Source: Taibaiella helva (GTDB taxonomy: Bacteria; Bacteroidota; Bacteroidia; Chitinophagales; Chitinophagaceae). Taken from it: a stretch of DNA of 64,000 nt. Positions 48,427 through 52,451 of this stretch are shown here, in pieces. The notes under the pieces were generated by a model. That model worked only from the letters and a program-made list of their open reading frames with translations, was not told the DNA's origin and made no database searches. The stretch lies in NCBI RefSeq assembly GCF_003545695.1, contig NZ_QUZZ01000001.1, forward strand, positions 558,001 to 622,000, given 5' to 3'. The position numbers and the translations under genes are program-made. Positions within the stretch are counted from its first letter, which is position 1, and each line of letters opens with the position of its first letter.

Positions 48427-48450
48427 GAAATTTATAGAACCGATATTTTG

Positions 48451-48476
48451 AAAACCGCGCCAGGCGCGGTTTTTTT
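48451..48476 (+). terminator. Terminator after the short T9SS gene
   Basis: AAAACCGCGCC and GGCGCGGTTTTTT form an almost loopless palindrome with a U tract, 24 bases after the stop. Confidence 0.88.
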
Positions 48477-48538
48477 ATTGCTCCATATCTTTTTTTATTT
48501 GTCTGTAAAAAATGGCATGGATTTTCCGTTTATACGAC

Positions 48539-48574: not shown

Positions 48575-51343
48575 ATGGACTCACTTTTTTACTTGGTGCC
48601 CTGTTTCGGGATAGTAGCATTGCTGTTTACACTGATACAAAGCGGCTGGGTAGGCCGGCAATCAGCAGGTAATGATCGGATGAAAGAGATCAGCAAATAC
48701 ATCGCCGATGGTGCGATGGCTTTTCTTAAGGCAGAGTATAAGATCCTCACTTATTTCGTGATCCTTGCGGCGATCCTTCTGGGGATTATGGGTTCCAGCA
48801 ATGCCAATTCGCACTGGAGTATTGCCCTGGCCTTCGTGCTGGGCGCTTTTATGAGCGCCCTGGCCGGTTTCATTGGTATGCGTATCGCTACAAAGGCCAA
48901 TGTACGTACTGCCGAGGCCGCCCGTACCAGCCTGAGTAAGGCCCTTAAAGTCTCTTTCACCGGCGGCAGTGTTATGGGTATGGGCGTCGCTGGTCTTGCT
49001 GTATTGGGCCTGGGTGGTCTCTTTATCATTTTGAAAATGATCTTTGCTCCGGAAGCAGGTGTGGACTCCCTTGAAATGGAGCGTACCATAGAAGTGCTTA
49101 CCGGTTTCAGCCTTGGCGCAGAAAGCATCGCGCTCTTTGCCCGTGTAGGCGGCGGTATCTATACGAAGGCCGCCGACGTAGGCGCCGACCTGGTGGGCAA
49201 AGTGGAAGCTGGTATCCCGGAAGATGATCCGCGCAATCCGGCCACCATTGCCGATAACGTAGGCGACAACGTAGGCGACGTAGCCGGTATGGGCGCCGAT
49301 CTCTTCGGCAGCTACGTAGCTACCGTGCTGGCCACTATGGTGCTGGGCAGGGAAACAATAAGCGGGGCCGGTGACCGGTTCCACGGATTGGCGCCCATTC
49401 TGCTGCCGATGCTGATCGCAGGCGTCGGTATCATCCTGTCGATTATCGGTACTTTTTTTGTACGCATCAGCGAAGGCGCCGGTTTAAGCACGGCAAAGGT
49501 GCAGCGCGCGCTGAACATGGGTAACTACGGAGCCATTGTGCTGACCGCTATTGCCGCCTTCCTCCTGGTTAATGGCCTTATGCCCGATACAATGACCCTT
49601 CGCGGGCATGAATTCAACAAGATGGATATCTTCGGCGCCATCATTGTCGGCCTGGTTGTCGGTACCCTGATGAGTGTCATTACCGAATACTTTACCGCAA
49701 TGGGCAAGCGCCCGGTGCTCAGCATTATCCGCCAGTCGGCCACGGGCCATGCCACCAATATTATCGGGGGCCTCAGCGTGGGTATGGAAAGTACCCTGCT
49801 GCCTATCCTGGTGCTGGCCGGCGGTATCTACGGCTCTTACGCTTTTGCAGGTCTGTATGGTGTGGCCATTGCCGCAGCCGGCATGATGGCAACTACTGCC
49901 ATGCAGCTGGCAATCGATGCCTTTGGTCCTATTGCCGACAATGCCGGTGGTATTGCCGAAATGAGCGAGCTTCCCGGCGATGTACGTGAGAAGACCGATA
50001 TCCTTGATGCTGTAGGCAACACCACGGCAGCCACAGGTAAGGGCTTCGCTATTGCCTCTGCAGCGCTTACCGCCCTGGCTTTGTTTGCGGCCTTTGTCGG
50101 CATTTCGAAGATCGATGGCATCGATATTTACAGGGCAGATGTGCTGGCCGGCCTGTTTGTTGGTGGCATGATCCCCTTTATCTTTTCTTCCCTGGCCATT
50201 AAGGCCGTGGGACAGGCAGCCATGTCCATGGTGGAAGAAGTGCGCCGCCAGTTCCGCGAGATACCCGGTATCATGGAAGGTACGGGCAAGCCTCAGTACG
50301 AAAAATGTGTGGCCATCTCTACCGATGCTTCCATTAAGAAAATGATGCTGCCCGGTGCGATCGCCATCCTGTCTCCGCTCATCATCGGTTTCCTGCTGGG
50401 ACCCGAAGTGCTGGGCGGTTTCCTGGCAGGCGCTACTGTCAGCGGTGTGCTGATGGGCATGTTCCAGAACAATGCCGGCGGCGCCTGGGACAATGCCAAA
50501 AAATCTTTTGAAAAAGGTGTTCAGATCAACGGCGAGACCTACTATAAGAAATCGGAGCCGCATAAAGCTTCTGTAACAGGAGATACTGTAGGTGATCCTT
50601 TCAAAGATACTTCCGGGCCTTCCATGAACATCCTCATCAAGCTGATGAGCATCGTGAGCCTGGTGATCGCGCCTACCTTGTCGCATATCTATGCCGGTAA
50701 GATACAGGAGCAGCGTACCGCCAGCATAGCACGCATGCAGCTGGCCGCTTCCGGTACGGAAGTAGCGCCCGGTACTACCGTAAATGTGCAGCAGGAGACT
50801 GTAGCGCAGACACCCGATGCCACAGTGAAGACCGAGCGCAGCGGCAAGCTGGTCGACAATGAATTTGTGGCTGACCTGGGCAGCATTACTGTGCTGAAGC
50901 TGCAGAACAATACCGAGCTGCAGGTAGGCGAGCAAAGCGTAGAACGGAAGCTGGTCGATTTTATTCAAACCGGTACCATAGATGAGGCCAACAAAAGCGC
51001 CAACTGGATATCCTTCGACCGCTTGCAATTCGAAACAGGCAAAGCCACGCTGAAACCCTCTTCGGAGGAGCAGCTGAACAATATCGTCGCTATCCTGAAA
51101 GCGTATCCCCAGGTAGGCCTTAAGATCGGCGGCTATACCGACAATACCGGCGATGCAGCAGCAAACCTGAAGCTGAGCCAGGAAAGGGCGGAGCACGTAA
51201 AAAGCCGCCTTGTCGCGCTGGGCATCGATGCTTCTCGCCTGGAAGCCGATGGCTACGGACAAGAGTTCCCCGTAGGGGACAACAACACCGAGCTGGGAAG
51301 GGCTATGAACAGGAGGATCGATGTAAAAGTTTCTAAAAAATAA
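48575..51343 (+). CDS. hppA: Membrane-bound ion-translocating pyrophosphatase fused to a C-terminal OmpA domain
   Basis: 922 residues. Residues 1 to about 710 are a membrane pyrophosphatase with about 16 helices. The substrate motif [20 protein letters not shown] (about 200-219) followed by [20 protein letters not shown] is intact, as is the second acidic motif [16 protein letters not shown]. The [13 protein letters not shown] segment has Ala rather than Lys after NTT, the hallmark of the K+-dependent class. These enzymes hydrolyse pyrophosphate and pump H+ and/or Na+ outward. After a linker (about 710-805) comes an OmpA/MotB-like peptidoglycan-binding domain (about 805-922; [40 protein letters not shown]). 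Known M-PPase C-termini face outside, so the domain would be periplasmic. Confidence 0.93.
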
Positions 51344-51410: not shown

Positions 51411-52451
51411 ATGAAATTCAGTAACAGGCTTAAATACATACTGTTTTCGGTGGTGTACTGGCTTCTGGCCTGCCACTGCTATATCATACTGCGTTTTATA
51501 GGGATCGATGGCGATGCAGCCGGAAAGATAAACTACGGGGAGATTTTTTTCCTCGCTACTTTCGACAGCATTGTCATCGGTTTTCTTTTTGGTATTTTCA
51601 CCTCTTCTTCCTTAAGCCTGAGACTCAAGCGGAGAGCCTTTTTCAGTACGGTGCTTATCAATACGGTGCTCTATGTCTGTTTCTTCGGTGCAGTGATCTT
51701 CGGCTCAAGCCTTGTCGGTAACACCCTGGCGTTTGCTGTTCAGTACAGCCTTTCAAGCGCCAGCCTGGTCACTTTATTTTACCTGTCGGTATGCAGTCTT
51801 TTATACCATTTTATCCTGCAGATGAACAAGAAGTTCGGGCCGGGTGTGCTGTTTGAATATATTATCGGGAAGTATTTTAGCCCGAAGGAAGAAAAGCGGG
51901 TGTTCATGTTCCTCGATCTTACCGCATCCACTACCATAGCGGAATCGCTGGATACCCTGCTGTACAGCCAGTTCCTTCAATCCTGCTACATAGAGCTGAC
52001 GGAGCCGATCAGCACTTATTCGGCGCATGTATACCAGTTCGTAGGCGATGAGGTGGTGGTGACCTGGAAGGTAAATAAAGACTTTGACTACGGGCAATGC
52101 GTTAATTTTTACTTTGCCTTTGCCAATGCGCTGTTGGGCAAAAAAGAATACTTCATGAAGACCTTTGGGGTGCAGCCTGTCTTCAAAGCGGGCATCCACT
52201 CCGGCACCGTAGTCGCCGCCGAAGTAGGCGAGCTGAAGACGGAGATCGCCTATCATGGCGACGTGGTCAATACCGCTTCCCGCATACAGGGCTTGTGCAA
52301 TCAGCACAGCCAGCAATTGCTCATTTCTGAGAGCATCTTCAATCCTATTGCCGGGAACAAAAAATTTACGCTGGGCCTTATCGGCGATGTGCAGCTGAAA
52401 GGCAAATTCCAATCGCTGAAAGTGTATAGCGTTCAGCTAAAAAGTGTGTAG
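51411..52451 (+). CDS. Class III adenylate/guanylate cyclase with membrane N-terminus
   Basis: 346 residues. Four hydrophobic segments in the first 150 residues form a membrane anchor. The catalytic domain starts about residue 163: metal-binding aspartates in FLDLTAST (Asp about 169) and VGDEVVVTW (Asp about 213), and the transition-state region HGDVVNTASRIQ with the Asn and Arg. It makes a cyclic nucleotide, cAMP or cGMP not decided, at the cytosolic face. It follows the pyrophosphatase by 67 bases on the same strand without an evident terminator, so the two may be cotranscribed. Confidence 0.9.
   Translation: MKFSNRLKYILFSVVYWLLACHCYIILRFIGIDGDAAGKINYGEIFFLATFDSIVIGFLFGIFTSSSLSLRLKRRAFFSTVLINTVLYVCFFGAVIFGSSLVGNTLAFAVQYSLSSASLVTLFYLSVCSLLYHFILQMNKKFGPGVLFEYIIGKYFSPKEEKRVFMFLDLTASTTIAESLDTLLYSQFLQSCYIELTEPISTYSAHVYQFVGDEVVVTWKVNKDFDYGQCVNFYFAFANALLGKKEYFMKTFGVQPVFKAGIHSGTVVAAEVGELKTEIAYHGDVVNTASRIQGLCNQHSQQLLISESIFNPIAGNKKFTLGLIGDVQLKGKFQSLKVYSVQLKSV

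Follow-up and report, generated by a model that had tools for sequence, protein, structure and literature searches.

Structure and surroundings of the fused gene

The window, by which we mean the whole stretch of 64,000 nucleotides analysed, contains on its plus strand a single stop-free frame of 922 residues (48575..51343, with the stop codon within these coordinates), as seen from its translation. The first part of the protein matches the Pfam family H_PPase (PF03030) over residues 13-698, with 894.8 bits against a cut-off of 29.7 and over the full profile (1-645 of 645). The tail matches the family OmpA (PF00691) over residues 819-913, with 69.9 bits against a cut-off of 27.2 (profile 2-98 of 98). 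The gene, its parts and the one feature marked upstream are as follows.

48575..51343, plus strand: fused gene, membrane pyrophosphatase plus OmpA domain, 922 aa (translation, Pfam, start comparison)
48611..50668, plus strand: H_PPase domain, residues 13-698, with the K+-dependent pattern and E183 (5.43), G245 (6.53) and A249 (6.57) (Pfam, V. radiata alignment, PMC6882861 numbering)
50573..50680, plus strand: TM16 and the conserved stretch that precedes it, residues 667-702; the helix probably ends in the periplasm (alignment, PMC6882861 numbering)
50681..50851, plus strand: variable linker, residues 703-759 (mean entropy 2.36)
50852..51004, plus strand: "beta element", residues 760-810, which travels with the OmpA domain; the name is a label without a structure behind it (sequence comparison, entropy)
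51005..51331, plus strand: OmpA domain of the peptidoglycan-binding type, residues 811-919 (Pfam 819-913), with D856 and R871 (Pfam, structure-sequence alignment, conservation)
48450..48474, plus strand: terminator-like stem 3' of the upstream gene (consensus scan only)

A preliminary description of this DNA had proposed one uninterrupted frame encoding a full membrane pyrophosphatase (M-PPase), a linker and a complete OmpA domain. This is confirmed by the translation, by the Pfam matches, including that of PF00691 to the C-terminal part, and by the recurrence of the fusion in 116 of 119 pattern matches described below. The pump, including its last helix (TM16), stops near residue 702. About 50 conserved residues (760-810) stand before the OmpA domain and move together with it as one cassette. 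Solved M-PPases align with the pump part (for example, 4av3 with residues 3-706), and solved OmpA domains align with the tail. The frame stays open back to an upstream ATG at 48512, an alternative start; the ATG at 48575 is the start that agrees with the script-picked starts in most relatives.

The consensus scan of the region found no promoter-like site and seven terminator-like sites against 3.0 expected, several of them within the fused gene. The gene may have a transcript of its own. The fused pump is the only M-PPase match found in its genome, which also has two matches to PF00719, the family of soluble pyrophosphatases; the organism therefore probably has a further pyrophosphatase besides the pump. 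A gene that by eye resembles adenylate/guanylate cyclases (window 51411-52451, plus strand) begins 67 bases downstream of the fused gene. In Taibaiella koreensis (L064), too, the fused gene has this cyclase-like gene behind it, and none was found in the stretch examined from T. chishuiensis (L072).

Catalytic residues and probable ion type of the pump

The usual picture of an M-PPase is a dimer in which each 16-helix subunit is self-complete. Residues of the fused pump were numbered by the scheme of PMC6882861, transferred through an alignment with the Vigna radiata enzyme, in which N12.53 was not placed. This gives A485 as 12.46, G488 as 12.49, E183 as 5.43, G245 as 6.53, A249 as 6.57 and K689 as 16.50, and the same alignment and numbering supplied the roles of the invariant residues. 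The catalytic Asp/Lys/Glu set and K16.50 are present in the fused pump, and the residues invariant in 14 fused proteins include K198, D201, D205, E216, D217, D227, D231, D235, D242, D448, D455, D639, K642, D670, D674, K677, D678 and K689.

Ala at 12.46 together with Gly at 12.49 is the rule for the K+-dependent type, as formulated in PMC10897367. The K+-dependent H+-PPase of Flavobacterium johnsoniae has these two residues and Glu at 5.43 (Table 1 of PMC6882861). The fused pump has the same three, with A485, G488 and the semi-conserved Glu at 5.43 and none at 6.53 or 6.57, and differs from that enzyme in carrying the cassette. The assignment to the K+-dependent type in the preliminary description is therefore supported by the residues, with the catalytic residues in place in the alignment. 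The residues of the fused pump fit the K+-dependent, H+-pumping F. johnsoniae type, and on this pattern the pumped ion is probably H+. The best NCBIfam model for the fused protein is the equivalog named "sodium-translocating pyrophosphatase" (residues 4-720); the pumped ion is not settled by this name. Four unfused relatives (L041-L044) from family f5, which may be the Flavobacterium group, have Cys-rich tails in place of the cassette.

Predicted topology of the C-terminal tail

Below the cytoplasmic active site, TM16 of M-PPases contributes residues 16.38 and 16.39 to the funnel, and its residues 16.46 and 16.50 are at the gate in mid-membrane, according to the residue assignments of PMC6882861. 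Because the residues follow one another from funnel to gate, TM16 would run outward, the chain would continue in that direction and, by analogy with the solved M-PPases, the C-terminal tail should lie in the periplasm. The preliminary description had taken the C-terminus of M-PPases to be periplasmic, and this residue order supports it. A hydropathy scan of the fused protein returned 13 segments, some of them merged helices, and so yields no topology.

Across an alignment of 111 sequences, from which the distant fusion L034 was excluded, the mean entropy is 0.41 bits for the pump, 2.36 for the linker (703-759), 1.78 for residues 760-810 and 0.95 for the OmpA domain; of all parts of the fused protein, the linker shows the least conservation. 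Its dN/dS ranges from 0.045 to 0.66 in the seven pairs where it was computable. The spacing of N16.46 and the GG in the OmpA motif ranges between 127 and 166 residues among the fusions, with 221 in L034. Being variable both in sequence and in length, the linker should be slack. Fully extended, its 57 residues would span about 200 Å by simple arithmetic, compared with a distance of about 100 Å between membrane and wall as given in PMC9093738, so the linker is long enough to reach the wall. A charged stretch follows TM16 (residues 703-722) and is present too in the unfused relatives L177, L178 and L184.

The OmpA domain and its putative binding pair

Nearest to the OmpA part among solved sequences are 5wtp and 5wtl, chains of the OmpA family, followed by YiaD, PA0833 and Omp38. 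In the alignment with the Omp38 chain 3td3, presumably the A. baumannii protein, D856 and R871 fall opposite an Asp and an Arg. Their spacing of 15 is that of Asp271/Arg286 of A. baumannii OmpA, a pair reported to bind diaminopimelate in the account of PMC12108004. The two residues are invariant in all 14 fused proteins chosen from full-length matches and by reading tails. They are also found in 111 of the 111 aligned sequences, a figure that is partly circular, as the search pattern required the Asp and the filter required both residues and would have hidden the degenerate cases G713 and G770.

These two genomes, both of family f10, have a shortened and degenerate cassette (L237 and L238) in which the binding motif is changed or missing; these domains are perhaps being lost. 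One pump of family f4 (G630) keeps the Asp/Arg pair in changed surroundings. The dN/dS of the OmpA part lies between 0.035 and 0.21 in all nine chosen pairs, and the ratios are rough as dS exceeds 1 in six of them; they indicate that the OmpA part is under constraint in most pairs compared. From the aligned Asp/Arg pair, we infer that the OmpA domain would bind peptidoglycan.

Distribution of the fusion in Bacteroidota

A DNA pattern for the junction was trialled on known loci and then run on the genome collection, where it returned at least 119 stretches, a lower bound because the pattern allows one range of linker lengths and demands exact motifs. Both motifs lie within one open frame in 116 of the 119; the other three (Oxalobacteraceae, Anaerovibrio and Herminiimonas) are chance matches. 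By their record titles, the fusions, at least 116, all come from Bacteroidota, 78 of them from Chryseobacterium, and the genera concerned include Kaistella, Capnocytophaga, Ferruginibacter and Taibaiella besides Chryseobacterium and others. All 40 members of an alignment picked from fused proteins (A2) score for both Pfam families. That the fusion is an artefact of assembly or annotation, or a read-through of two genes, is hardly conceivable: nothing was found in its favour, the frame has no internal stop, and the fusion recurs in 116 of the 119 matches from many records, including some with complete-chromosome titles (L111 and L176). This recurrence of the fused frame across records led us to set the artefact aside.

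The frequency of the fusion differs among the families sampled. Family f4, which holds Chryseobacterium, was represented by 120 genomes, 64 of them with an M-PPase, and a hand count gave 51 fused pumps, 12 unfused ones and one ended by the contig. A hand count for the 89 M-PPase-bearing genomes among 101 from family f10 gave 52 intact fusions, two degenerate cassettes, 33 unfused pumps and two left unclassified. At least 9 fused genes were found among 195 Chitinophagaceae genomes, and at least 14 among 395 genomes of the phylum sample, for which only the longer frames were fetched. Conservation, which the preliminary description had raised for the Chitinophagales, is thus low in the Chitinophagaceae searched (at least 9 of 195 genomes) and high in the family of Chryseobacterium (51 of 64 M-PPase-bearing genomes).

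One of the four genomes from the window's own genus (G484) has no OmpA domain on its pump, which is 91% identical to the fused one over residues 1-733, and no OmpA remnant was found in the 1.9 kb examined behind the unfused gene. Since the domain is absent from close relatives and degenerate in two genomes, the OmpA cassette is accessory and dispensable.

Other additions occur after TM16. Many Bacteroidota M-PPases have Cys-rich stretches there (for example, MMxACxxAGCTxEEC), with or without an OmpA domain (L178-L182, L185, L188 and L041-L044). A small VNGKEQ-like C-terminal module occupies the same site in several Chitinophagaceae M-PPases (L011, L012, L018, L183, L191, L193 and L195), and no Pfam family was found for it in the three that were scanned (L011, L018 and L193).

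Origins of the cassette

The pump tree was built from 95 rows, after dropping copies of loci, identical domains, incomplete junctions and all but every ninth Chryseobacterium/Kaistella pattern row; for its AU test, 10 further long or distant rows were removed. The label fused or unfused changes at least 12 or 13 times on the pump trees. On the 95-row tree there are 13 changes, at least eight of them forced by well supported branches. Single clades were rejected both for all fused pumps (51 of 85 rows, p 8.7e-5) and for the Weeksellaceae/f4 pumps (20 rows, p 1e-5). The latter (among L003-L009 and L058-L176) lie within a larger clade that also contains Chitinophagaceae, where they do not group together; this suggests that the fused gene has been transferred between families; contamination of single records is also possible.

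For the cassette tree, chains shorter than 860 residues were dropped, as were copies and cassettes that were covered already, and of the Chryseobacterium/Kaistella rows only every twelfth was kept; another 17 distant rows were removed for its AU test. The cassettes of 46 M-PPases, 10 DUF937 proteins and a P-type ATPase form one strongly supported clade, within which those of the M-PPases are not one group; the P-type ATPase is on a long branch, at a position that is uncertain in detail. The AU test rejected one common origin for all M-PPase cassettes (46 rows together vs 13, p 8e-5). For the 41 M-PPase cassettes outside families f10 and f19, a group named after the tree had been seen, a single origin was not rejected (p 0.23).

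The DUF937 proteins of this clade, here called DUF937-TM-OmpA proteins, have about 400-480 aa, with DUF937 found by Pfam in all seven scanned and one hydrophobic segment seen by eye. They share with the fused pumps the 160-residue cassette, up to 59% identical (e.g. L205, L201 and L054; 52% over 162 residues for L205), and differ in having DUF937 and one predicted TM helix and no pump. The cassettes of the pumps were probably captured from such proteins, a direction that we infer from these comparisons. No paper with both DUF937 and OmpA, from which their function could be learned, was found in the open-access literature. Such proteins were noted at L054 (in the same genome as the fused gene), L201, L203-L208, L210, L212, L215 and L217, seven of them by Pfam and the others by eye.

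A separate OmpA fusion was found in a distant member of Bacteroidota (L034, genome G231). Its pyrophosphatase has Glu at 6.53 (GASS and DLFES motifs), a pattern found in Na+-pumping and some other M-PPase types. Its tail combines a BON-type part with OmpA and shares 46% identity with a BON-OmpA protein over 242 residues. Among the matches listed from 99 genomes of its order, only that from its own genome extends over its whole length. Together with the rejected single origin of the cassettes, this separate fusion points to at least three captures of a wall-binding domain within the phylum.

A related cassette is also attached to a different type of pump. A tblastn search of plasmids found WP_195838300.1 on the Methylocystis rosea plasmid NZ_CP044329.1 (L197:3391-6540, plus strand), annotated as a heavy-metal P-type ATPase, with the cassette at its C-terminal end (Pfam OmpA at 946-1039; 39% identical over 200 aa to that of the fused pump). 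Both proteins are thus ion pumps with related cassettes at the C-end, whereas the ATPase is ATP-driven and has an extra hydrophobic segment before the cassette. No further plasmid P-type ATPase with the cassette was annotated as such among the best 15 of 390 records.

Comparison with known systems

The preliminary description knew of no characterized enzyme with this architecture, and as a claim of novelty this needs correction. A 2024 review (PMC11210485) describes an OmpA-like C-terminal domain in the 810-aa M-PPase of Paucibacter sp. KCTC 42545 (A0A0U2VTE8), an enzyme which is itself uncharacterized, and in those of relatives. Its account calls the enzyme K+-insensitive, by prediction, describes a domain of 110 residues with limited resemblance to OmpA whose role is still to be clarified, and tabulates five records, betaproteobacterial or unplaced (PMC11210485). 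In both this enzyme and the fused pump, a single chain holds an M-PPase and, after it, an OmpA-like domain; compared with the review's description of it rather than with its sequence, the fused pump differs in its K+-dependent pattern, its place in Bacteroidota and its full OmpA domain with the binding pair. No other report of the architecture was found in the open-access literature. The architecture is therefore not unprecedented, and what is new is its spread across Bacteroidota, the at least three captures, the probable source in DUF937-TM-OmpA proteins and the similar cassette on a P-type ATPase; the Paucibacter case would be a fourth capture.

The MotB/PomB stators are likewise ion-conducting complexes of the inner membrane tied to the wall by an OmpA-like domain, as they are described in PMC9093738. 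However, their domain is on a separate subunit with a plug helix, and ion influx drives torque, whereas here the domain is on the same multi-helix chain as a primary pump rather than on a chain with a single TM helix. No MotB-like plug segment was identified in the tail by eye.

Possible role of the OmpA domain

Given a periplasmic tail, the Asp/Arg pair and the reach of the linker, tethering to the wall is the best reading of the fusion. A K+-dependent, probably H+-pumping pyrophosphatase of the F. johnsoniae type would sit in the inner membrane, and from the periplasmic end of TM16 a slack linker of about 57 residues would lead to the 160-residue cassette of beta element and OmpA domain. The OmpA domain would hold the diaminopimelate stems of peptidoglycan and thereby tether the pump dimer to the wall, which could limit the diffusion of the pump or fix its place. 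The source of the cassette would be inner-membrane DUF937-TM-OmpA proteins, whose TM helix is replaced by the last helix of the pump. We consider this explanation, taken as a whole, reasonably likely. It has to accommodate the unfused close relatives (one of four genomes in the same genus, 12 of 64 in f4 and 33 of 89 in f10) and the unrelated tails at the same place on other M-PPases of the phylum, which suggest that additions after TM16 may simply be tolerated.

The preliminary description had offered, besides tethering, a pump that responds to the wall in the manner of MotB, where load on the OmpA domain would act through TM16 and modulate pumping as the plug and periplasmic domain of MotB do. 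TM16 is part of the coupling funnel and the ion gate as laid out in PMC6882861, so load on its end could matter, and a charged stretch (703-722) follows it. However, no part varies more than the linker (entropy 2.36, dN/dS up to 0.66), the range from 127 to 166 residues (221 in L034) between N16.46 and GG suggests that it is slack, and the charged stretch is also found in unfused L177, L178 and L184 and so is not specific to the OmpA form. Thus, of the two functions proposed, tethering is retained, with the binding itself predicted from the Asp/Arg pair, and responsiveness is not; the latter is possible, found no support in this analysis and, in our judgement, is improbable. The pump might also serve only as an abundant foothold in the inner membrane for a tie to the wall, with its pumping independent of the cassette, which would do the same job as on DUF937-TM-OmpA proteins. 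This agrees with the related cassettes on these proteins and on the P-type ATPase, the host seeming interchangeable given a helix that ends in the periplasm, but the open-access literature yielded no paper on both DUF937 and OmpA from which the role of the proteins compared could be taken. We regard such a brace as unlikely.

A neutral origin, in which additions to the C-tail are tolerated and the pump gains nothing from the OmpA domain, would explain why many different tails (Cys-rich, VNGKEQ-type and short ones) occur at the same site, why the label changes at least 12 or 13 times on the pump trees and why the cassette is degenerate in two genomes. The low dN/dS of the OmpA part, the retention of the fusion in 51 of 64 f4 and 52 of 89 f10 pumps and the at least three captures argue against it, and there seems little chance that it is correct. 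Beyond the tethering of this one pump, we suggest only tentatively, as a rather doubtful generalization, that a transferable wall-anchoring cassette has been grafted repeatedly onto primary pumps of the inner membrane, both pyrophosphatases and a P-type ATPase, and holds them at fixed positions of the peptidoglycan. If this were true, immobilization of pumps would be a selected and unrecognized trait of bacterial energetics.

That one phylum acquired the domain at least three times, and that 51 of the 64 sampled f4 pumps retain it, suggests that the place of a pump, or its tie, can matter. The DUF937-TM-OmpA proteins form an unstudied family, located in the inner membrane by prediction, which is the likely source of the cassette. 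Close natural pairs of pumps with and without the domain, such as those of the same genus with 91% identity, make pump placement testable.
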